In this document: piece by piece, positions 330 through 38,314 of the stretch
How the letters are laid out: every line of letters starts with the position of its first letter
How positions within the stretch are numbered: the first letter of the stretch is position 1
DNA from: Sycon ciliatum
Taxonomy: Eukaryota; Porifera; Calcarea; Leucosolenida; Sycettidae
Length of the DNA stretch: 64,000 bases
NCBI RefSeq assembly: GCF_964019385.1
Contig: NC_088646.1
Coordinates: forward strand, 8,970,571-9,034,570
Reading direction: 5' to 3'
Notes under the pieces: model-generated
Seen by the model: the letters and a program-made list of their open reading frames with translations, nothing else
What the model was told of the DNA's origin: nothing
Databases searched by the model: none
Translations under genes and position numbers: made by a program

Positions 330-3300
330 TCAATCATAGGACTGTCCATGATGCGAACCAATGTTTAAACGCTGGGGTGGCTTGCGCTGACGTGCGCTGC
401 GGCGGGACGGCGGCGGCGGGGAAGAGGCGTCAGCAGCAGCCGGTTGGACAACAAGCGGTGCAGGCACAAGTGGGCGATACGGACGCAGGAATCTGCGGTT
501 CCGCCAATAAATGCGACCACTCGGCAACTTCACTAGGTAGTCCCGATGATTACCGACAGCAACAATGACCCCACGAATAGACCACTGCTTGGTGCGCGGA
601 TGCTGAACATCCACGTGGGTGCCGAGGCGGAGCTGCGGCAACGAGCGACGAGTTGACGACTTGTCTGTGACGGCATCGTCGGATGGCATGGCAGTCTCAT
701 CACGTGTCGTCGCTTTGGAGAGCCAGGATGAATCAAACTCCTTCCAATGTGCAATGACGAATGACTGGAGAGAGCGGCCATATAGGAGCTCAGCGGGGCT
801 CTGACCAGAGGAGCCAGGTGTGTTTCGCCATTCCAGTAGCCCTCGGCGGAAGTCATCTGTGTCAAGATTGCCATTCACGGTTGTCTTGGTGATAAGACGC
901 TTCATGGCTTTGACAGCAGCTTCGGCGTGCCCATTACTCTGCGGGTAGTGGGGAGAGGACATGACATGGTTTACCTGCCAGCGCTTACAAAACTCAGCAA
1001 ACTTATGCGAGGAGAACTGGGGACCACCATCTGTACACAGCACAGCAGGAACACCAACATCAGAGAACCAGCGACGGAATGCTAGTATCACGTCATGCGA
1101 TGAGGTGGTGCGGCCAGTACGCGCGACACAGGGCCAACCGGTCAAACGATCTGCATACACAAGGAAGTCGTGACCTTGACAAGTGAACAAATCGGCAGAT
1201 GCACATTCAAACGGTAGTGTCGGGGTGCGGTCGTTCAGCAGGGGCTCAGCTGGCTGGGACGACTGGTGTTCGCGGCAAGCAGGACAAGAACGAACGAGTG
1301 TATCAATGTCCTTGGTGATACCGGACCAGTATACAAGCTGACGCGCACGAGACTTAGTACGCACTAGGCCTTGGTGTGAAGCGTGGAGGTTGTGCAATAC
1401 CTGAGCACGCAATGATTCAGGAACAACAATGCGGTTGCCCTTCATCACAATGCCATGGTCGACGGAGAGATGCTCACGTCCATTCCAGTACGCACGTAAC
1501 GGAGCAGGCAACTTCTGCTGGCGATCAGGGAATCCAGTCAAGATACACTCAATCAATGACTGGTACGTGGCATCTGCAGCTGCAGCTTCCCGCAGCTCTG
1601 CAACCTTGAGATTCGCATTCGGCTCAGTGTCCGAGTGCACCATGCAGATCTGAATGCTGCGGCAATGAAGCGACGGGGCTTCACCAAGCTCATCAGTGGT
1701 GGAAGGAATGCCAACAGGATTCCGGGACAGCGCATCGGCGAAGGCATTTTCAGAACCTTTTCGCCAAGATGCCTGCAGCTGATAGGCTTGGAGCTTGAGG
1801 CGTAATCGTAGAAGACGCGGGTTCTCGATCTGATCCAACGAATATGAGTTGATGATCGGAATCAGGGGCTTGTGGTCGGTGACGACTTCAAATGGCGCAC
1901 CAGACAGGTAGATGCGGCATTTGCGCACGGCCCATACTACAGCGAGCATTTCCAACTCGATGACAGCATAACGTGTTTCAGCATCAGACAGGTAGCGGGA
2001 TCCACACTGAATAATACGCCACTGATCATTCTGCTTTTGCCAAAGCACGAATCCGAGACCTCTTAGAGCGGATGCATCGGTTTCAAGCCGGAGGTCTTGA
2101 CCAACTTGATAGAAAGCGAGAACCGGAGGAGACAAGAGAGCTTCCTGTGTCCGTTCAAACGCTGCAATGTGGCTAGCGTCCCACATGAACTCACGGGAGG
2201 TCTTGAGCAGGCCACGCAGAGGATTGGTCAACTCGGCTAGATGTGGAGTGAACTCGCCACATTGGTTCACTAGACCGAGGAACGAACGGAGATCGGTTCT
2301 GTTGGCGGGTACTGGAAACTGGCGAATACCGGACGTCTTATCATCGTCGACGACCCAGCCATCAGGCGTGACGTTGTAGCCGCAGAAATGGATACGTTGC
2401 GTACCGAACACAAACTTGGCGGGGCTGAACGTGATACCATGCTCCCTGGCGCAGAGCAGAATCTCGCGCACGTGGCTGACATGCGACAGAAAGTCGTCGT
2501 CGTACGCTAGGCAATCATCGACTACCTTGCCGAGACGCGGGATGGCAGAGAACGCAGCATCAGTGCGCCGGTTGAACTCATCCCCAGCAGATATTAGACC
2601 CTGCGGGTTCCGTAGATAACGATATCTGCCGTACGGGGTGATAAACGTGGTGAATTCCTGAGCAGTGTCACTGAGAGGAATCTGCCAGTAGCCGTGCCTT
2701 GCATCGAGCTTCGTAAAGAACTTAGCAGAGCCAACTCCAGAGACAACGTCACGTGCCGTATGTACGGGATGCGCGGGACGACGGACTTGGTCGTTCAGCC
2801 GCTTGAAGTCAACTGTGAGGCGCTTCTCAGTGCTGCCCTTCTTGTCTACTATGACAATCGGATGGCACCATTCACTGGGCTCCGTCACTGGTTCAATAAT
2901 CCCGTCGCTGACCATGCCGTCGAGCTGAGTCTTGATCTGGTCACGGAACGCATACGGTATTGGTCGAGCAGTGTACACACAGGAAGGCTTAGAATCGTTC
3001 TGTAGCTCAATTTCCATTGGCGGACCTTCCATTGGCTTCAGACCGGAATCCGAGAAAACGTCAGCGAACTCTTGCAGGAGCTGCTCACGTGTCCGCGCTA
3101 ACTCAGCATCACTAGGATGAGCGCATGACGAAACAGCTGCACAGATCTTGGGTGAAGATGCACCCTCGTGTTCAGCGGTGAATTGGACTGGCCAATCAGG
3201 TGGGAGAAACTTCAGCGCACGCAATGAGGTATGAGAGAGCAGGGCATCGTGTAGACCCTTGTACACATGGATGACGGTTTCATGCTGCGTCTCACCGACT

Positions 3301-4649
3301 CGTAGAGTCGCACGTATTTTGCCCAGGTTGCGTAGCGGCTCACCGGTCACAGCCTGCACACAGTCGTGGTCGTCATCTAAGTTCTCGACGAACCCACCGA
3401 TCTGCGTGAGGTGCTCCTCGCAAATGGCATCAACGTCACTGCCTGTGTCTGGTGTCCAGGACAGTTGGGATGGCTGATCCTCTGTTTGCAGCATGGTCGA
3501 AACAGGTACTGTGCGACGGTCCACGCGAGACGCACGCTGTAGCTTCAGCTGTCCAAGCTTGGCAGCAGAGCTAGTCTTCGGCTGTTTCTGGCTCTTGCAC
3601 ATTCGCTGAAAATGCCCAATGCCATGACAGGAGTTGCACTTCTTGCCCTTGGCAGGACATACAGATTTCGTGTGGTCAGAACGACCGCAATTTGGACAAG
3701 TGGACTTGGCCACACTTGATGTCTCACTTGGCTTAGAGTCAGCTGGCTTGTGACGTTTCTGCTGCTTGTACGCCGACTGCTTGGCAGCACTTGCCTGGAG
3801 GCCAGGACTGGGCATGTGTGCCTTGGTGTGGTATGCTGCTTCCTCCGTCCGACAGAGGGTGACAGCCTGGTCGAGCGTGAGACCATGAGTTGCGAGCAAC
3901 TTGTGTCGCGTCTCATCGTTCCGCACACCAATGACGACGCGGTCGCGCAGAGATTCCTCCTTGAGGGTACGGCCGAGGCCTTTGCACTGCGCACAGCAGC
4001 GAGCATCACACGTTCCACATAGGCTGTGTGACAAGAAGTCGCATGCACTTTGTAGTTCACACAGGGCTGTGTAAAACGCATCAAATGATTCTCCAGCTTG
4101 CTGGACACGCTGGTAAAACTCTATGCGGTCTAACAGTGGGTTACGTTGCCGTCTGATATACGCCTGAATGCGCTCCAGCATCAGGTCAACGTCAGCTGAA
4201 GCTGGTATGCAGATAATATCCTCTCGGATAAAACGTCGCAGCTCCTCATCGAAACACTGACGGAGTGTTGCCACTCTGGCCTCACGAGCCTGGCTGGCCA
4301 AATGCTGGCAAACACTAAAATCTCTCCAGCTTTCAACGAAGGAGTGAAAATCAGCCAGCGTCGCAGACGACAATAAGTGTGGGCAGGAAACACTGTTCAC
4401 TGGCCGTGGTGCTGAGGTCTGCGAGGTGGACTGAGCTGGTGCTGAGGGCTGCGGAGTGAACTGAGGCTGCGACGGTGATAGCGACCTGCTCTGAACATTC
4501 TTGAACAGATCTTGCATCGCCTTATCACGAGCCTCAGCTGCACGCATCTGCTGCTCCATAAATTTCATCAGGACACCCATTTGAGATTCCTGCTGTCGCT
4601 CGGTCGCGGAGGACAGGTCAAATCCGGTATCGTCCTGTGATTGTTCCAT
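330..4649 (-). CDS. Gag-Pol polyprotein of Ty3/gypsy retrotransposon
   Basis: One open frame of 1439 residues with no stop or frameshift encodes gag and pol as a fusion. In order: a Gln-rich gag N-terminus; two CCHC-type zinc knuckles near residues 318-350 (CPNCGRSDHTKSVC and the following CNSC...C); an aspartic protease with a DTGS active site near 400; reverse transcriptase with LDARHGYWQI and the catalytic VVDD at about 710; RNase H with ETDAS near 857 and TDHKPL; then integrase with an HHCC zinc region (CPAC near 1123) and a D,D-35-E core (SADLF, TDGGPQF, GHAEAA, about 1150-1240). The domain order protease-RT-RNase H-integrase defines Ty3/gypsy. I see no chromodomain and no envelope frame. 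Probably competent for transposition. Confidence 0.95.
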   Translation of the reverse strand: MEQSQDDTGFDLSSATERQQESQMGVLMKFMEQQMRAAEARDKAMQDLFKNVQSRSLSPSQPQFTPQPSAPAQSTSQTSAPRPVNSVSCPHLLSSATLADFHSFVESWRDFSVCQHLASQAREARVATLRQCFDEELRRFIREDIICIPASADVDLMLERIQAYIRRQRNPLLDRIEFYQRVQQAGESFDAFYTALCELQSACDFLSHSLCGTCDARCCAQCKGLGRTLKEESLRDRVVIGVRNDETRHKLLATHGLTLDQAVTLCRTEEAAYHTKAHMPSPGLQASAAKQSAYKQQKRHKPADSKPSETSSVAKSTCPNCGRSDHTKSVCPAKGKKCNSCHGIGHFQRMCKSQKQPKTSSAAKLGQLKLQRASRVDRRTVPVSTMLQTEDQPSQLSWTPDTGSDVDAICEEHLTQIGGFVENLDDDHDCVQAVTGEPLRNLGKIRATLRVGETQHETVIHVYKGLHDALLSHTSLRALKFLPPDWPVQFTAEHEGASSPKICAAVSSCAHPSDAELARTREQLLQEFADVFSDSGLKPMEGPPMEIELQNDSKPSCVYTARPIPYAFRDQIKTQLDGMVSDGIIEPVTEPSEWCHPIVIVDKKGSTEKRLTVDFKRLNDQVRRPAHPVHTARDVVSGVGSAKFFTKLDARHGYWQIPLSDTAQEFTTFITPYGRYRYLRNPQGLISAGDEFNRRTDAAFSAIPRLGKVVDDCLAYDDDFLSHVSHVREILLCAREHGITFSPAKFVFGTQRIHFCGYNVTPDGWVVDDDKTSGIRQFPVPANRTDLRSFLGLVNQCGEFTPHLAELTNPLRGLLKTSREFMWDASHIAAFERTQEALLSPPVLAFYQVGQDLRLETDASALRGLGFVLWQKQNDQWRIIQCGSRYLSDAETRYAVIELEMLAVVWAVRKCRIYLSGAPFEVVTDHKPLIPIINSYSLDQIENPRLLRLRLKLQAYQLQASWRKGSENAFADALSRNPVGIPSTTDELGEAPSLHCRSIQICMVHSDTEPNANLKVAELREAAAADATYQSLIECILTGFPDRQQKLPAPLRAYWNGREHLSVDHGIVMKGNRIVVPESLRAQVLHNLHASHQGLVRTKSRARQLVYWSGITKDIDTLVRSCPACREHQSSQPAEPLLNDRTPTLPFECASADLFTCQGHDFLVYADRLTGWPCVARTGRTTSSHDVILAFRRWFSDVGVPAVLCTDGGPQFSSHKFAEFCKRWQVNHVMSSPHYPQSNGHAEAAVKAMKRLITKTTVNGNLDTDDFRRGLLEWRNTPGSSGQSPAELLYGRSLQSFVIAHWKEFDSSWLSKATTRDETAMPSDDAVTDKSSTRRSLPQLRLGTHVDVQHPRTKQWSIRGVIVAVGNHRDYLVKLPSGRIYWRNRRFLRPYRPLVPAPLVVQPAAADASSPPPPSRRSARQRKPPQRLNIGSHHGQSYD

Positions 4650-4827
4650 TACGATTAGTCACTCGTCCACGAGTACGAACAAATACACTACTAAAATAAT
4701 TAAACTGAGACAGAGTTTCGATCGCGGAAACTACTACTTCATACGGAAAAAACAACTGGGCCCGTGCAAACACTACAAGGTGCGGACACAAGGCACGGAC
4801 ACAGGAAAGAACAAGTTCACTGCGCCA

Positions 4828-9175: not shown

Positions 9176-10923
9176 ACCGTGAGCCTGTTGCACGGTCCAA
9201 GGACATGAACGTCTTGGACCGCTTCAGAGCTCATGTCAATACCAGGGCATATTTTGCACGTCGGCCATCGGTGCTTCTTTTAAATCTACAATCTGGATCC
9301 ATTGAATGCGAGGTGCAATTATTTTCCTCAAGCGGCCTCAAGTGGCTGCCTTTTGTCCGTGAGCCACAGCCACACGACTTGGCTTTTGCAGGGTGCTCTT
9401 TGCGCATGTTTCGCGGACAGCCATTCCTGCATTTGCTCTTCCTCAGCACTTTTGATCTCATTCAAACTCACTCACAACTCACTCCAAGACTGTTTGTCTA
9501 CTTTCTTCTAGTTCCATGAATGTATTTTGGCGTTTGACACACAAGTATATTTTAAAAGCCCGTTGTGTTTCAGGCGGAATCGGCAACCATTGCCCGTCAG
9601 TACGTCATTCGTTGTCAATCCCCTCACAAAACACATACGTTTACCTTGTAGTATATGCCACATTCTAGGCGCTTTTAGGTAGGGTGTTTTTTTTAATAGC
9701 GTAACATCATCAGTTCCGTCTGCAAATGAAGCAGCTCTTGTTTCAAAGTATATCTGCTGGCGGTCACACTCTTTTAGTTTTCGTTCGTGTGTTTGTGATG
9801 TTATCCTGTACGAATCTAGGGTGATAGCAAAGGGTATGTTAAACCGTGATTAAGGGTTGGCCTGCAACGCATTGCATCCATTACATAAGTTGTCCATACC
9901 ACGCTTTGTACTGAAAACTTGTGATCTCTCGTACGTACAGGCATTGCTGCTTTTGCTTGATTCGTTTGAATCATGGCGCCCAGCCCTACATATTCTGTGC
10001 GAAACTTAGTTTTGCACCACAGTACGAGAGGGTGAGTTTTTGATCTTTCGCACCATGAGGCCTCGAGGGTGAACTTGTACAATGCAATCAGGTTAGGAAA
10101 GCATGCACTGCGAGGCTGGCCCATATTAAAGAGACCACGGTGGTGTATTCTGTGGGCTCTTGCTTGTACTACCAGTACATGTTCAGTTGTGGCCAAAAAA
10201 ATCCGACACGGGGTTACACATCAGTTGTTGGCTATCGGCATTTCAACATGCCAATACATGTAGTACTTTTTTCCTTCTTCAAACAGTGATAAGAGAAAAA
10301 TCAAGCAATCGCGCAGCTGCCTTTCATTGACAACAGTAGAAGGAAATACAGGAATACGGTGTGTTGATACAAGTAAACGCGAGGTCCAGTTTGTGTCATG
10401 TGCGAAGTTCTTTGACTGAAAATACAATAGGTGAAAACCATTTTGCGCGGAAACTCAATGACTGGCATGGCATGATCTGATCAACTATGCAGCATACATG
10501 ATGTAATGCTAAAGATAGCTCTGTTTAAAAAGACGAATAGAAGACAGAAAGAAAGAATTCACGCACAATACCTATTGAATCGTGAGGACAATACACAAGG
10601 GAGATCAGTGTGAGCTTGATCTAGATAACCAGGGTAGAAACAGTAACAAGAAACAAAACACTTAACATGACTGACCATCACTACCCCGGGCTGGATGGAA
10701 GCAAGCCACAAGTACATGTACAGTACAGAAAAGCTTAGAGATGAACGGCCTAACCCCAAAGAAATCTACAGTTGCACATAGGTAAAACCAGGGTAAAAAG
10801 CTAACAGAGACGTGTTTTAGTTTACATTACAAAGGCAACGAGGAACGTGTGAAAGGCCATTGGAGGTGATGATGTTCAGTAGCAAAACCATGCCAAGTTG
10901 TTCCGGTGTCGCAGTGCTGTCGT
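9176..10923. other. Intergenic stretch, no gene recognised
   Basis: This separates the 3' end of the MICU gene from the 3' UTR of the minus-strand MsrA gene. No convincing coding exon, RNA gene or transposon end was seen. The small open frames here lack family resemblance. Confidence 0.5.
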
Positions 10924-11009
10924 TTTGCATGCTTGTCACAACCATCCGGCTTCTGGTTTCAGCTGGGAGCTGATTGCACCAGGTGCCATCATACAGACAC
11001 GCATGCAAA
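10924..11009 (-). promoter_or_regulatory. SECIS element (form II) in the MsrA 3' UTR
   Basis: On the minus strand this 86-nt segment folds as a eukaryotic selenocysteine insertion element. Helix I pairs TTTGCATGCGTGTC (from 11009) with GACAAGCATGCAAA (ending 10924), one mismatch. An internal loop follows. The non-Watson-Crick quartet has AUGAU at 10992-10988 and GGAU at 10947-10944. Helix II is GGC/GCC plus CUGGU/ACCAG. The conserved A-A (10975-10974) lies in the 5' side loop 12 nt after AUGAU. A small top helix UCAGCU/AGCUGA with a CCC loop makes it form II. It starts about 90 nt after the MsrA stop codon. It would recruit SBP2 and the Sec elongation factor to decode UGA. Confidence 0.88.
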
Positions 11010-11099
11010 TGTCAAGCACTGCTACACACCGAAAGCAAGCAAGGCCAGTCGTGCACACCGTACACATCACAGGCCGCTGACCAAACACATAAGGCCCTC

Positions 11100-13021
11100 C
11101 TAGCGTGCAGAGCAAGTGGCATCTGAGCCAAACTTACACTGGCGCAACACCTTATGCTTCAAGTCCTCGTTCTTAATACAGAAGCTCTCCCACTCCTTCT
11201 CCAGATCCTGTGCAGCTCCATATCCACCCACGTAACCGTTGAGACGACAAGCACGAGAAGACTCGATGAGCTCCCTATTGGTTTTGATGCCCAGCGCTGA
11301 TACGATAGCAGGATGCTTCTGCAGCAGATACTTTTGGTGATAGCTGAACACAAACAACGAAAGAATACACACAACACATGAAGATAACAATGCCGGTAGA
11401 AATTATTGCATGGTAAGCTGAGGGCGCCAACTACGCACAATTGGTCGGAGTTCACCGAGCGCAGCTGTACATTAGGCTCTAGAATACAGAGTGTAGAGTG
11501 TAGTTATGTAATTAGCAATCTGTGTGTCACCTGTGCAACCATGCATGGTGCATTCCAACTGCACAAGCCTTCCGGCAGATGATTCGGAATTCGTGGAGAG
11601 GATCAACGTGCGGTTCATGCGCCGTCACGTCGACCGTGAGCTCCGCATCCATCTCCAGACGTCGGACACCACGGGCGCTAAAGCTGTAGCCACGCTAGGC
11701 CGTCCAGAAGCCGCACAAGCCCACCGGCGGTTAAAAGACGACTTGGTGTGTTCATTGAGCGGATTAATGTACATTTAAAAAATGCTAAAGAACCCAACAG
11801 GCCCTGCGTTTAGCATACCGGTACATGTAACTTACTCTTCAGCGTCATAGAACACTGTGGACGAGGCTGCAGCAATGACGGTAGCAATCGGTTTCTTCTC
11901 TTTCTTCTGATGGGCGGCCTTGGATTCCTCGGCCAGGGTCTTCTGGTGGCTGCTGTGGTACCAGATAGCCGACATGTATTGCCGGGACATTCGGCTTGTG
12001 CAGCTGTGATTGTTCCAGAAGAAGTCCAGCAGCTCGCTGTACGTCGTCTCTTCTGTGTTGAAGATAATCTCCACAGCTTCTGTGTGATCACCACTGACAT
12101 CATTGATGTGCATTGAAGGGCAAGAAGAAGAGAGCAAGAACATAAAATGCAACGTAAGGACCATGGGCATGGTTATGTTTACAGGCTTCATCAAAAACGT
12201 ACAGCGGCAAATCGCTCGACATGCTACTTGTCTCTGCATCATCCCCAAAACAAAGACTGCAATTGAGTCTTGAAGCTTTGAATATTCAAAATTACTTGTG
12301 CGAATGGATTAGTAGCTCCAACTCCAAGAGTGCGGATGGCTTCAAGCAAGAACCAAAACATGTTACGCATACAGGCACATGCAAAGGCAAAATTTTCAGG
12401 AGCCAACCATTCAGTCACAGGACACTTCTGTTAGCAGTACTTCCCCTTGTTTAGCACCATAACAAATAAGTACTACTAGGAACATGAAACAACACACAGC
12501 CTCAAGAATCGCACCATGCCTTTTTTTTCATGCCACTGCAAAGTACACCGGTGATTCGGAAAAGTCAAGTCATTGCAGCCGTGGCTATAATAATAATGCC
12601 TTGTTTCTTTCATGCAGCGCAGCACACAGGGAATAGAAGGCTGCCTTGGAGGACGAACCGAAAGTACTTACAGGCTATGGTAGGTCGGATTTTTCTTCTG
12701 ACCTCCTGTGAAACCAACCCTGGTTTTCACAACTCCCGGGGCACAGCCGACCTGTGCCTCGGGAAACCAAAATCAGCTCATGGCGAAAGTGGCAGTTTCG
12801 AACTGCTGCGGCTCAGAGTCGGTGGATGCAGTCGACTTCTTGTCCATTTCCGCTGCTGTTTCTGGTCTGCTTTTCGCACTGCCACTACCCGTGATCCTTC
12901 TGAGGATAGAAGACATCTCTGCAACAGACTCAGTGGCCCCTGTGCCTGTAGCCGCACGACTCCGTACAACGACTGGCACGTGCTGTAGCGATCCACGCAA
13001 GAATTTTTGAAACAAAGGCAT
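11100..13021 (-). CDS. msrA: Selenoprotein methionine sulfoxide reductase A (UGA-encoded Sec)
   Basis: Reduces methionine-S-sulfoxide in proteins. Three exons: 12672-13021, 11836-12093 and 11100-11343 (852 nt, 283 residues counting Sec). Around the catalytic site the frame reads ATFAMS-UGA-FWFPEA, where the family has GCFWG; UGA (12775-12773) replaces the Cys codon. After it come GVVKTRVGFTGGQKKNPTY, GDHTEAVEI, FFWNNH, QYMSAIW and AEDYHQKYL, all MsrA landmarks, and the exon junctions restore HSLGDHTE and AEDYHQKY. C-terminal cysteines (SSRACRLNGYVGGYG and QCKFGSDATC) may act as resolving residues. The 80-residue N-terminal extension is Arg-rich early, so mitochondrial targeting is possible. 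Sec-containing MsrA is known from algae and reported in some invertebrates; vertebrates use Cys. Confidence 0.92.
12773..12775 (-). other. In-frame UGA read as selenocysteine (codon 83)
   Basis: The only in-frame stop between the MsrA start and its TAG at 11102-11100. It stands exactly where the family has its catalytic Cys, and coding similarity continues for 200 residues past it. An ordinary nonsense mutation would hardly fall on this codon in a gene that also has a SECIS. Confidence 0.92.
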
Positions 13022-24331: not shown

Positions 24332-24726
24332 CTTACAAGTAGGCTCCGTCTACGTTTCTTTGTGTAGCATACATGTACCAGTATTGCCACAGTGATTACT
24401 CGTATATGTGGATCCGATGTCTACCATGATCTACTTGTACTTGTAGCAGCTAAATAAGCTGTTACCCGAGTCAGTGACTCAATCAGTGTGTACTGGGCTG
24501 TGGAGTACAAGGCAGAAGCTCATCTCCGCCGTTCACAGCGGGTAGAGCTAGCAGCCGGTTTGGCCGGACCACTGTTGCCAAAAGGTATTACACGCCTGTG
24601 AATACAGTGGCGGTCATCTTCAGCACAATTGGTGGCAGGCTTTTTAGATCAGCAGCAGCAGCAGCAGCAGCAGCACATTCCCGCCACAGCAGCTGCACCG
24701 ACAGTCTGCTCTCACCTCTAGCCAAG

Positions 24727-26268
24727 ATGTCGAAAACACAAGCAGGAGGTGTATCTGTGGAGGGTGTGCAGGCCGAAAGAGTGCGTAGCCTGAATGAGAA
24801 AGACTGTGTGGCTGGTGGTCATTATGTCCTGTACTGGATGCAGGCATCAGTTCGCTGTGACTTCAACCATGCTCTAGAGTTTGCCATTGCCCGTGCCAAT
24901 GCGTTGAACAAGCCGTTAGCATGTTGTTTCGGATTGACAGATGGCTACCCGGAGGCAAACGAGCGACACTACGCCTTCATGCTTCAGGGACTTGCCGAGG
25001 TTCAATCGGACCTTCTGCGACTGCGGCACATCAACTTGGATGTGTTCAAAGGCTCGCCGGAGGCTGTTGTGTCGGAGCTGAGCAATGACGCGTGCGAAGT
25101 CGTGACGGACATGGGCTATATGCGCATTCAGCGTTCATGGCGAACACGTCTGGCCGAGAGAGCACTGTGCAACGTGTGGCAGATTGAATCGGATATTGTT
25201 GTGCCTGTCGAAACAGCATCGGACAAGGAGGAGTTCGCTGCTCGAACTATTCGCGGCAAGATCCAATCAGTTGCAAGCAAATACCTGAAGCCAGTAGAAT
25301 GTGTGGAACTGGAGGATATGTCCATTGTGGACTTGCAATCGAGAACGGCTGCACCAAAATTGGACCTCTCAGATGTTGATGCCGCACTGGCAGGATTGGA
25401 CGTTGACCGATCTGTGCCGCGTGTTTCATCGTTCATCGGCGGCCGGTCAGAAGCACAGCGGTGTCTCCAGCAGTTCATTGATACAAAGCTGTCCAAGTAT
25501 GGCGAAGGTCGCGACGAGCCAATGGACAATTCGCAAAGCTACCTCTCCGCTTATCTCCACTTTGGCCAGATCTCTCCAGTTGAGATTATCCTAGCTGTAC
25601 GAGCAGCGAAGGCATCCAAGACTGGCAAGGATAACTTCATAGAGCAGCTGATGATCCGGCGTGAGTTGGCCATCAACTTCTGCTGGTACTGCCCGCAGTA
25701 TGACTCGCTGGAGTGCCTGCATGACTGGGCAAAGACAACACTTGCCGCGCACCGGGATGACAAACGCGACTATGTGTACGACCTTGCAAGGCTGGAGAGC
25801 GGGCAGACGCACGACCCGTACTGGAACGCCATTCATCTGGAGATGGTGGTCACGGGCAAGATGCATGGATACTTCAGGATGTACTGGGGCAAGAAGGTTC
25901 TCGAGTGGACCACGGACGTGGACACGGCGTTCAAGTGGCTACTGTACCTGAACAACAAATATGAGCTTGATGGACGCGATGCTAATGGTTACACAGGCGT
26001 TGCCTGGATTTTCGGCAAGCATGACCGGGCCCACGCGGAACGCGCTGTCTATGGCAAGGTGCGCTACATGAGTCAAGATGGTATCAAGAGGAAATTCAAG
26101 ACGCTCCCGGCCTATGTCAAGCACATTGAGAAGCTAGCGGCAGACTACAAGAAGACGTATGGCCCAATCGGTGCGGTGAAATCTGGAAAAGCCGGCCCGT
26201 CAGCAACTACCACTGCATCTAGTGCTTCTTCTGCAAGTGAACCTCCTGCAAAGAAGAAGAGAAAGTGA
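24727..26268 (+). CDS. Class II CPD photolyase
   Basis: Light-driven repair of cyclobutane pyrimidine dimers using FAD. 513 residues from the ATG at 24727 (context gccaagATGt), in one exon. The N-terminal Rossmann-like domain has VLYWMQASVRCDFNHALEFA; the FAD domain carries the class II signatures RRELAINFCWY and KYELDGRDANGYTGVAWIFG followed by HDRAHAER. The C-terminus ends in a basic PPAKKKRK, a good nuclear localisation signal. The same frame stays open upstream to about 24598 (Ala run, Arg, Ser) but has no ATG there, so a spliced upstream exon could add a targeting peptide. Class II, not a cryptochrome. Confidence 0.95.
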   Translation: MSKTQAGGVSVEGVQAERVRSLNEKDCVAGGHYVLYWMQASVRCDFNHALEFAIARANALNKPLACCFGLTDGYPEANERHYAFMLQGLAEVQSDLLRLRHINLDVFKGSPEAVVSELSNDACEVVTDMGYMRIQRSWRTRLAERALCNVWQIESDIVVPVETASDKEEFAARTIRGKIQSVASKYLKPVECVELEDMSIVDLQSRTAAPKLDLSDVDAALAGLDVDRSVPRVSSFIGGRSEAQRCLQQFIDTKLSKYGEGRDEPMDNSQSYLSAYLHFGQISPVEIILAVRAAKASKTGKDNFIEQLMIRRELAINFCWYCPQYDSLECLHDWAKTTLAAHRDDKRDYVYDLARLESGQTHDPYWNAIHLEMVVTGKMHGYFRMYWGKKVLEWTTDVDTAFKWLLYLNNKYELDGRDANGYTGVAWIFGKHDRAHAERAVYGKVRYMSQDGIKRKFKTLPAYVKHIEKLAADYKKTYGPIGAVKSGKAGPSATTTASSASSASEPPAKKKRK

Positions 26269-34088: not shown

Positions 34089-36743
34089 CTAGTCAGCAGC
34101 TTCGGCCTCTGGCTCAGCAAGACCCCTCGAATTCTGCACTCGTTTGATGAGCAGAGCAATATGCCGCTTCAGCTCGATCGAGCTGCTTGGCATGGTCAGA
34201 TTTGTATCGAGCACAACCTCCGACTCATCTTTGGTCTTGTGGAAATGAGTGCTGATGACGTGTATTAGCGACGCATCTGTCATCTCCTCCCAGCCAATTG
34301 GGTCGGTTGGCGAACTGATCTCAGGAGAGAGGACTGCCCCGAACATCTCAACCTCTTCCGGCGTCAGGCGCAGGTAGAAGCGCAGAAGAATGAGCATGGT
34401 ACGTGTACCAGCACTTAACTCCACACTGCTGCGATTCAGTTCCTGGCGCTGTGTCTCCTCTATGTCCAGGATGTCCATAATGTGCTGGTAGCTACGACTG
34501 AGCAGCATGTCCAGGCATCCCAGATGGGTGGGTGTCTGCTGCTTTATGCGAATCAGCAAGCGCTTCTGTAGCATGCGAAACTCAGCAGCTCGCTGCTCCA
34601 GGGAGGTGAGAGACTCGTTGAGCGCTTTCCGCTTCTCCAGGTGGTCATCAATCAGTGCAAAATACTCCTTCAGTGGTAGATCGCTTGTTATGCTCAGCTC
34701 CAATGGAGCTGTCTGACTCTTGGTCGAGTCGGTAGTGGAGAAGTACTTTTCCAGCCTGTCTGCAAATTCTTCCATCACCATCCAGAGAGCCTGGAAGACC
34801 TCGCTCTGAATGCGATAGCGGTTGGAGTGCTTGGCGGCCAGTATTGATACAGACATGCCGCCAGGGAGACTAAGCGTCAGGGCGTTGTGATTCTGGGACT
34901 CAGTCTGGCGTTCAACATCGCTGAACAGCTCCAACAGGTCGACGCACGGTTTGTTGCTATTGAGGACCATCTTGCACGCCGCATCTTTCACCACCTTGAC
35001 GGACTTGGCAAAGAGTGTAATGGGTAGTCTGATGTTATGCACCAGTGAATTGGGATATCCAGTGGCGGACGTGTAAGAAGCCACAACTGTAGCCGACGCA
35101 TTGCATACGGTTGTGTCGCTAGCGACGAAAAAGTGGAAAAGGAGCTCGGAGGAGCTTCCAGCAGCGACCCGACTGACGACTATACCAGGCGGGTTGACGA
35201 TGACGGGCTCGACACAGCGTACAGTAACGGCGACTTCGTGTGCACCACCTTCACTCGGGGCATGTATTGTGAGCTTGACGACTGCGCATGGCCGAGGAGC
35301 GCCCTCATTTCCCTCGCCAAAACAAGCCACGAGCTCTCCAGGTGGAAGCTCCATGATCAGTCTCTGCTGGGTTTCAACACGCAGCTCTGTCGTCACCTTT
35401 TTCACATCAATGTCCTCCGGCGGTGCCTCGCGCTTTTCAATGGAGTCGATGAGCTGCATGAGTTTTTCAATATCGCCTGTTGTCACGTCCGTATTGCGTC
35501 TCTGTGAGAGTGGGTTGACTTGTTGTAGAGGCTCGGTTCCCAGGTAGGAGCATGTGATGCAGCCGTTGTCACCTAATGTTACGATCAGGCCACGCTGCTC
35601 CTTGTCCTGGCTGCCGAAAGACGCCACTGCCACTGCTATCGGAGTGGACGTTGGGAAGTTGGTGGCCCACGCTAGGCGCGTGTTGCTGAGCACGGCCAGG
35701 GAGCCGCTGTCGTGATACGATAGCAGCGTCAGCACCTCCACGGACGGCTTCTCGCCCGCCCTGTCGGGCCGGGCACAGCTCAGTGCATACGGCGCAAAGC
35801 AGGAGGCCGGTGAGTCTAGCTTCTTGGCGAAGAGAATGACACCGTTCATACCTATGCAGAAGAGTGACCGCTCTCCCAGCACCATCAGGCACGTGTCGTC
35901 TTCGTCCTCTTCAACGTCACCTATTCCCGGCACCGCTCGTTTTCGATCGTAGTCTATCATCACCTCATGGATGTCCAGGATCATCTCTCCCAGGTCAACG
36001 GACCAATCGGGAGATACGCGCTGCGTGGACTGTGATGCCAGGGTGTCAAGCCCGTGGCTCGTAGCAGCCTTGGCAATGGCCGTGTACTTGAAACACTGTA
36101 CCTGGCGTGTGCTCGAAGCTGTCAGCAATGCAGTCAGACTCTGGCTGTACGCGATGGGTCCCGGCAGCAGAAAGCTAGGTAGATAGCAACCATAATGCAG
36201 GACGGCCGCGTCAAACGTGTAGATCATGCCGTCCAGGCTCTGCACGCAGATGCACTCGGTGCCGTCGGTTTTGCCGAATGAGCCCTGGCACATGTTGTAA
36301 GCAACGTGTTTCAGCGCGTGGCGGTAGCATTCCTCGAGTGTGTATGCTGCACCCGCCTGACTATCGCTACTGCCACCAGTGGTAGCACCACTGGCAGCCT
36401 GTGCTGATTTGCTCTGCTTCCTCAGACTGTAGACAGCCAAGCGCCTTGGCATGAGCACAGCAATGCTAATGTCCTTGTCGTGCGCACCGAACCGACCACA
36501 CATCACCTGCAGGATGGGATCGCCTCCCAGGTTCTTTTCCGCCAGTACATCGCTGGCTTGGAAGCCATTCGGTGTTGGCTGGTACACGCGCAGGCAGCCC
36601 TTCAGGCTGCCCACCACGATCTTGCTACCTGTTGGTTGGTTGTCGCAGTTGGCCACGCACATCGCCGACGGGTTGAACTCTTCGTTGCCGTCTCCCGCTA
36701 CTGTTCGCCACCATTCCCTGGCTCGGAACTGGGACATGGTCAC
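34089..36743 (-). CDS. BBS9: BBS9 / PTHB1, BBSome subunit
   Basis: A core subunit of the BBSome, the coat complex that moves membrane proteins into and out of cilia. 884 residues in one exon, almost the human length (887). It starts MSQFRAREWWRTVAGDGNEEF (human MSLFKARDWWSTILGDKEEF); the ATG two codons upstream is also possible. The N-terminal half fits the beta-propeller (IVVGSLKGCLRVYQP, DPILQV), followed by the GAE-type and helical regions, and the end has LIHVISTHFHK and LKRHIALL as in the family. It is intronless, unlike the heavily split HOOK nearby, so either a retrocopy origin or intron loss is possible; no poly(A) relic or flanking duplication was noticed. Confidence 0.95.
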   Translation of the reverse strand: MTMSQFRAREWWRTVAGDGNEEFNPSAMCVANCDNQPTGSKIVVGSLKGCLRVYQPTPNGFQASDVLAEKNLGGDPILQVMCGRFGAHDKDISIAVLMPRRLAVYSLRKQSKSAQAASGATTGGSSDSQAGAAYTLEECYRHALKHVAYNMCQGSFGKTDGTECICVQSLDGMIYTFDAAVLHYGCYLPSFLLPGPIAYSQSLTALLTASSTRQVQCFKYTAIAKAATSHGLDTLASQSTQRVSPDWSVDLGEMILDIHEVMIDYDRKRAVPGIGDVEEDEDDTCLMVLGERSLFCIGMNGVILFAKKLDSPASCFAPYALSCARPDRAGEKPSVEVLTLLSYHDSGSLAVLSNTRLAWATNFPTSTPIAVAVASFGSQDKEQRGLIVTLGDNGCITCSYLGTEPLQQVNPLSQRRNTDVTTGDIEKLMQLIDSIEKREAPPEDIDVKKVTTELRVETQQRLIMELPPGELVACFGEGNEGAPRPCAVVKLTIHAPSEGGAHEVAVTVRCVEPVIVNPPGIVVSRVAAGSSSELLFHFFVASDTTVCNASATVVASYTSATGYPNSLVHNIRLPITLFAKSVKVVKDAACKMVLNSNKPCVDLLELFSDVERQTESQNHNALTLSLPGGMSVSILAAKHSNRYRIQSEVFQALWMVMEEFADRLEKYFSTTDSTKSQTAPLELSITSDLPLKEYFALIDDHLEKRKALNESLTSLEQRAAEFRMLQKRLLIRIKQQTPTHLGCLDMLLSRSYQHIMDILDIEETQRQELNRSSVELSAGTRTMLILLRFYLRLTPEEVEMFGAVLSPEISSPTDPIGWEEMTDASLIHVISTHFHKTKDESEVVLDTNLTMPSSSIELKRHIALLIKRVQNSRGLAEPEAEAAD

Positions 36744-38314
36744 AACTGTCTACACTCGTACATGCACTGTGCTTTTTTCTTCAAAACTAACACCGCCAGC
36801 AGTCCGCTAGGCACAGGTCCTGGAGTCGATCAAAGTCAGTGCAAGACCTAGGACCGGTTGATGTCATGAATGCTAACCTCAATCTTCGATCAAGCAAGCG
36901 ACTACCAATACCATGAAGACGGAAGGCAGGGCCGAGGGACTATTTCCTTGTTCTTTCCCCTTTCAGGCTTTCTACAACAGTATCAGCAGTTTATTTACAA
37001 ATACATTCTCTCAATGATCCGCTGAAAGGACCAAGGAGGAGGTAGTGCAGCTAGCTGAGAGTGATCAGAGATTGACTCGGAGGGGAAGAAGCAAGAATTA
37101 TTTTGAAGAAAATGTAGGCATACTGCCGGCCGCATAGGCTGCTAGGCGCGAATCGGTGTGATCGCGCGAGCACCAGCGAGTACGTGATCCGACTGATCGT
37201 GAGTAGGTCACACGCGTTGCTATTGGTAACGTCTTGACAGTGGATTTTTCCTCGGCTTTAGTTTAGACCATAAAATAATTACCACTGAGTCTGTAGACGA
37301 CTCGATGATTTTCCTGTTCTCTCTTCTGTTCTGTCTTCACCATGATGTATCAGTTCTCTTGTCCTGGTCTCGGTACGTCATTCATTGTACAGTCATCATT
37401 ATCATCGCTACACCAAGATCATGTGCTCTTGCCACTGAGTCTTGGCATTATTCTCGCGTTGTAACAGTACAGCGTTGGGTGGGATACAGTCCTGTCGTTG
37501 CCAACAGCAACAAGGAATGCCGAGACCAACGGTCACCGATTTGATACAAGGCATTATGCAGGCTAGAATCACATCCCCATTGTGATCATAATCAAGATCG
37601 ACCCACTCGCGCGACAACCATGCTGCACACTCCTGACATGGGACTGTGGCTGAGATATCCCAGACTGTTATCAGCCTGATGTACATGTAGAAATATTACC
37701 AATGATGAGGACAATATTTCGAAGTATCAAAGCTCAGCTGAACACTCATAATATAATTATAACGTTAGAAGAGATAACAGTGAACACAAATGGAAACATT
37801 ACTAGAGAATAGATCGGGAAATGCGGACTTCAAACTTCAAGCCTTCTTAAAAACTAACAACGATAACTGTGACAAAGCAGCAGAGGTACCAGCACCAACA
37901 GAGGTACAACACAAGTTTCGACCTCGCCTCGCCAGTACATGCTCATGCCGGGCAGGAGCTGAACTATTAAAAAAAACAAAACAAAAAACGATCAAGCAAT
38001 GCAGCACATGTGAGCATCGAGAGTCATATCGCCTCTGTGTCTCATAGCAGACAGAACAAAAGCCAAAGTTACTATAGTAATACATAAAAACGGGAACACG
38101 CGCACACATCAACAGACATGCATACATACTTCAAAGTACTAGCCACATACACACACACACACTCGCACGCATGCACACACCTTAAACATAGCAAGAACAC
38201 TGTGTTGGTTGCCTGGATGGGCTAATACTAATAGCCAGGAAAAAGTCTATGCACTTCATACACACTGCCAGCAGTAGTGAGAGAAAGCAGTAAACCTGTC
38301 CTGACAGGTTCTCA
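36744..38314. other. Spacer between BBS9 and GPS2-like, no gene recognised
   Basis: The BBS9 promoter and GPS2-like 3' UTR should be here. Only short unsupported frames. A few CA units lie near 38150. Confidence 0.4.

Follow-up and report, generated by a model that had tools for sequence, protein, structure and literature searches.

The window (the whole stretch of DNA analysed, 64,000 nt; C4:8970571-9034570 in a genome of 538,412,230 bases and 313 contigs) carries on its minus strand a three-exon gene for methionine-S-sulfoxide reductase A (MsrA), with a UGA codon inside its reading frame and a SECIS element downstream. The features, in the order of transcription, are:

12672..13021, minus strand: MsrA exon 1, with an N-terminal extension, the start of the PMSR domain (PF01625 from residue 76) and the putative Sec codon
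12773..12775, minus strand: UGA in the reading frame (codon 83), on the catalytic residue; probably read as selenocysteine
12094..12671, minus strand: intron 1, GTAAGT...CAG, phase 2
11836..12093, minus strand: MsrA exon 2, the PMSR core (GDHTE..., RQYM); genome profile match C4:8982405-8982665
11344..11835, minus strand: intron 2, GTAAGT...CAG, phase 2
11100..11343, minus strand: MsrA exon 3, YHQKY after a split D codon, then the C-terminal helical domain PF20939
10924..11009, minus strand: SECIS element, with AUGA at 10992-10989, apical AA at 10975-10974, GA at 10946-10945 and an extra apical stem, UCAGCU/AGCUGA

Elsewhere in the window there are single open frames for BBS9/PTHB1 (34089-36749; all five Pfam parts present; the closest relatives, two metagenomic proteins, are each 51% identical, and the nearest named one 34%) and for a DNA photolyase (24478-26268; closest relatives 66 and 64% identical, again metagenomic proteins). 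The closest relative of the photolyase and that of BBS9 each lie on a contig of 304,305 bases, probably one and the same. A long open frame at 330-4658 resembles, by eye, a Ty3/gypsy-type retroelement polyprotein.

The MsrA frame begins with an ATG at 13021 and ends with a TAG at 11102-11100 (minus strand). Joined, the three exons give 283 codons in which the UGA at 12775-12773 is the sole in-frame stop; by simple arithmetic, a stray single stop would fall on codon 83 with a chance of 1/283. The locus has no signs of decay, with no second stop, no frameshift, and both introns intact. A first-pass annotation of this DNA had proposed that the UGA is the only stop in the frame and lies exactly on the MsrA catalytic position, and that MsrA sequence continues beyond it across two introns. 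Both proposals hold: the PDB alignments described below place codon 83 of 283 on a catalytic Cys16, and the 200 codons past the UGA include most of the PF01625 match and are joined at phase-2 GT-AG junctions.

The predicted product matches Pfam PF01625 (PMSR) over residues 76-213 (E 5.6e-36; 124.5 bits, cut-off 23.7) and PF20939 (selenoprotein MsrA helical domain) over residues 226-261 (E 2e-6; 27.9 bits, cut-off 23.7), and its TIGR00401 score of 114.9 is above the cut-off of 108.1. Its best PDB matches, 4u66, 7c13, and 4lwj, are all MsrA (E about 8e-39, best 7.8e-39; residues 72-269), and all three alignments pair codon 83 with Cys16, where the catalytic residue of the clostridial selenoprotein MsrA lies (4LWJ is identified as this protein in the available part of PMC4479559). 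Besides the GCFWG motif, the clostridial active site is described as including Tyr47, Glu55, Gln89, Tyr90, His137, and Tyr140 (PMC4333827, available portion). All six are retained here, as Y114, E122, Q155, Y156, H205, and Y208, and are identical in 120, 120, 120, 119, 120, and 111, respectively, of the best 120 of 2713 relatives. The two Gly residues of GCFWG are S and F in the window protein, as they are in 50 of the 59 Sec-type proteins among those 120. Cys93 and the Cys of an RQC sequence close to the C-terminus both have a Cys counterpart in the alignment with a second MsrA copy, found on another contig, C11 (discussed below).

The protein search behind these figures yielded 2713 relatives from 4458 candidates, and the best 120 were examined. 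In the codon 83 column they have W (59), C (33), a gap (27), or I (1), the gaps belonging to truncated or differently started proteins. The W residues are senseless as catalytic nucleophiles, and we therefore infer that they represent UGA translated with code 4, making 59 of the 120 listed relatives putatively Sec-type. One protein with C in this column, from Daphnia magna, has no F directly after it and was excluded, leaving 32 Cys-type relatives. Sequence on both sides of the UGA is conserved among the best 120. The expectation that gene callers truncate genes of this type is borne out by the NCBI entries for Amphimedon, Lytechinus, and Nematostella, which start at FWFPEA, the residue directly after the UGA; the Acanthaster entry starts one residue later.

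The residues immediately around the UGA (window 12764-12778, residues 82-86) appear at first to be linked to Sec: the combination of S at -1 and F at +3 is found in 50 of the 59 Sec-type relatives listed and in none of the 32 Cys-type (0/32, best 120 of 2713). A tree was calculated from 108 sequences with the motif masked, comprising 106 of the 120 relatives and the two MsrA proteins of this genome, with 14 truncated ones omitted. When descent is counted on this tree, just two independent well supported pairs bear on the association, with a median p of 0.5; it is confounded by descent, and is not significant. A narrow literature search found no paper on an S-Sec-F-W-F flank, which is not proof of absence. 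On the same tree the window protein adjoins a group containing Amphimedon and Oopsacas, a placement with no well supported branch. Acanthaster and Ptychodera also have a Cys MsrA of the same subfamily (P0058, P0110); by eye, both have a signal-peptide-like start, and the Acanthaster protein ends in KDEL, as ER proteins do.

A SECIS element downstream of the gene, also anticipated by the first-pass annotation, is present at 10924-11009, its AUGA beginning 107 nt downstream of the stop codon. The predicted fold comprises helices I and II, with AUGA opposite GA between them, and an apical loop that carries AA, plus an extra apical stem; we take this anatomy to be form 2. The folding energy of 10915-11012 is -36.9 kcal/mol (z -2.82), and was equally low in 4 of 200 shuffles. 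A fixed-rule scan, requiring an inner stretch of at least 36 nt (it is 42 nt here), was applied to all RTGA sites on both strands of the window (613 + 593 = 1206). Twenty-four of the 1206 pass (7 + 17), the best being this element at -36.8 and the runner-up -27.6. When the 500 nt following the stop codon were shuffled with dinucleotides preserved, 0 of 2000 shuffles reached this score, and 48 of 2000 contained any passing site at all. Rfam SECIS_1 matches 10935-11000 over its full length (model positions 1-64 of 64) and is the only match among 4227 Rfam families in 10500-11400 at an E threshold of 10, with 21.3 bits against a curated cut-off of 35 (E 0.25 over the 4227 families); since the score is under the cut-off, a search of the whole window at gathering score gives no match. 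The identification of the element thus stands on its anatomy and on the shuffles, not on the Rfam cut-off.

Lack of the machinery for Sec insertion in the genome would have spoken against a selenoprotein, as the first-pass annotation pointed out, but tRNA-Sec, SEPSECS, and a UGA-containing SPS2 are all present. There are three copies of the tRNA-Sec gene on C4 (L015-L017), each scoring 76.6 bits (cut-off 47) and having the anticodon TCA according to ARAGORN; the other 35 of the 38 matches in this search are under the cut-off, and one of these, when checked, was a tRNA-Ser. The three genes lie within 0.55 Mb on the same chromosome as the window. SEPSECS is represented by five ordered exon matches (C4:221972-234450), whose manual assembly matches O-phosphoseryl-tRNA(Sec) selenium transferase with an E of 2e-94; one of them (L011) overruns its exon, so that two stops are visible in it. 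A sixth match, on C163 (E 4.6e-5), by eye resembles another PLP enzyme. SPS2/SelD is found at C5:4146781-4147626 (L014; E 5.3e-68) as a single stretch covering positions 1-269 of 311 in the SelD model, with one internal TGA in the context KG-U-GCKVP, which is presumably the Sec site of SPS2.

A PF01625 search of the whole genome, carried out exon by exon with only the best candidates (six) scored, gave four exon matches at two loci, the window and C11:4506932-4511552 (L005:4433-9053). The C11 gene has 215 codons, is also matched by both PF01625 and PF20939, and has two introns with positions and phases identical to those of the window gene; its one UGA is at the same codon. It lacks the N-terminal extension of the window protein, which is basic. 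The two copies are far apart: 97 of 213 aligned codons have the same meaning (counting the UGA pair), pN is 0.385, and synonymous change is saturated. Differences at codon positions 1, 2, and 3 number 88, 75, and 141 of 213, the pattern that coding constraint would produce. This search of best candidates gave no Cys MsrA. Another outcome that the first-pass annotation had set against a selenoprotein, an intact Cys copy with decay at this locus, is therefore not what is seen: both MsrA loci found carry the UGA, and the window locus is undecayed. In the viral contigs scanned with the C11 protein, no relative was found.

The C11 gene has no convincing SECIS. Under the fixed rules none of the 74 sites on its strand of L005 passes. 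Laxer rules, permitting other apical letters and weaker helices, give six sites in L005 and six in L006 (the two stretches examined for this gene), of which the sole one in the 3′ flank with an apical AA is L005:9459 (L006:659), 405 nt after the stop codon, with a score of -22.7; its parts follow the order of those in the window SECIS (ATGA, CAATCAGC, GCTGA, GA), with weak helices. Neither of two higher-scoring sites, L006:1908 (-32.2, apical CA) and L006:8377 (-39.1, apical AC, some 8 kb past the stop codon), is considered credible. Within L006:1-3000, a stretch reaching 2.7 kb past the stop, Rfam has no SECIS match with an E of 10 or less. In an alignment of the window and C11 3′ flanks, 930 of 1000 shuffles score as high or higher, and no homology of the two is claimed. 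In Capitella, a second MsrA copy that is incomplete and without SECIS has been taken as a dying gene (PMC3473315, in the part available); the C11 copy is like it in having no convincing SECIS but differs in its intact frame. Because of the missing SECIS and this precedent, the C11 copy counts as weaker support.

The exon structure, the UGA, the SECIS, the conserved active site, and some of the Sec machinery are visible in the sequence itself; taken together, they suggest that this animal makes a Sec MsrA, as the first-pass annotation had supposed, and that the window gene is, with high probability, a working selenoprotein gene. In the proposed mechanism, the three exons would be joined into one mRNA, in which the SECIS of the 3′UTR would recruit the Sec insertion machinery so that tRNA-Sec decodes the UGA at codon 83. 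By analogy with the family, the Sec selenolate would then attack the sulfoxide of protein Met-S-O, with release of Met, and the enzyme would presumably be regenerated by glutaredoxin or by a Cys of its own. The basic N-terminal extension suggests, as a guess, that the protein may be sent to mitochondria.

One alternative is that the window holds a pseudogene of a Cys MsrA, in which TGT or TGC has mutated to TGA. A single base change would suffice, but it would leave unexplained how 283 codons escaped any other stop or frameshift with both introns intact, and why a strong SECIS lies correctly placed behind them. The same UGA codon has also persisted in the C11 paralogue, though just 97 of 213 codons agree and the differences follow the coding-constraint pattern; 59 of the 120 listed relatives appear to be UGA-type as well, and no Cys MsrA was seen among the best candidates of the exon-wise genome search. 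We consider decay very improbable. The UGA might instead be a plain stop, giving either a truncated protein of 82 residues or a product started past it, as several of the named relatives have in fact been annotated. Either product would be missing the catalytic residue, yet sequence is conserved on both sides of the UGA and a SECIS follows downstream, leaving this reading a smaller chance still. The least probable, almost negligible, is a changed nuclear code in which UGA means Trp. It would take the W at codon 83 in 59 of the 120 listed relatives at face value, but Trp is unable to act as a catalytic nucleophile, the genome has three tRNA-Sec genes with the anticodon TCA, and SPS2 too has a UGA at its presumed Sec site.

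The selenoprotein reading can be extended, much more tentatively. It is conceivable, if rather doubtful, that all MsrA of this animal are selenoenzymes with no Cys backup, the extended copy perhaps mitochondrial and the other unextended; that S-Sec-F-W-F is an active-site frame of its own, shifting with Sec/Cys exchange; and that the second copy is decoded by way of a weak or unusual SECIS. If it is true that only Sec-MsrA exists in this genome, methionine repair here would depend on selenium supply.

The window gene is one more member of an already known kind. That Sec-MsrA occurs in some invertebrates, as the first-pass annotation stated, was published in 2012 and 2014: the available portions list MsrA selenoproteins in Amphimedon (1), Trichoplax (1), Nematostella (2), Capitella (2), and Branchiostoma (1), with none given for Lottia (PMC3473315), and in Strigamia, Daphnia, Ixodes, and Branchiostoma (PMC4244043). 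Algae are covered by PMC7539508, as far as its accessible text goes. The invertebrate proteins of the first two papers, on the same partial basis, belong to the same subfamily and have Sec at the catalytic position, as here. Two copies per genome are likewise not new, given the counts for Nematostella and Capitella in the part of PMC3473315 cited. Among the matches listed, Amphimedon is the nearest named relative, sharing 60% identity across 62% of the query length.

The selenoprotein MsrA of Clostridium oremlandii (PDB 4LWJ, 4U66) has the PMSR domain, PF20939, and the active-site residues in common with the window protein, and differs from it in having GCFWG where the latter has SUFWF; in bacterial Sec insertion, the element is found beside the UGA. 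The mechanism of the clostridial enzyme and its recycling by glutaredoxin are treated in the portions available of PMC4333827 and PMC4479559. According to the former portion this enzyme has no Cys, whereas the window protein has several possible resolving thiols. The Cys MsrA of insects (Periplaneta, Cryptotermes), Acanthaster, and Ptychodera are of the same subfamily and 45-50% identical to the window protein; in the 32 Cys MsrA listed, Cys stands in place of Sec, the residue ahead of it being G or A and that at +3 never F.

An ancestral Sec form of MsrA, replaced by a Cys form in insects and vertebrates, has been argued for in PMC4244043 (available part). The present gene is consistent with this published view of Sec-MsrA as old in animals and replaced by Cys in some lines later. 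It belongs to the genes that automatic annotation truncates at their Sec codon, and probably adds one more animal that uses selenium for methionine repair to those already described, from a lineage for which the searches carried out gave no close named relatives.
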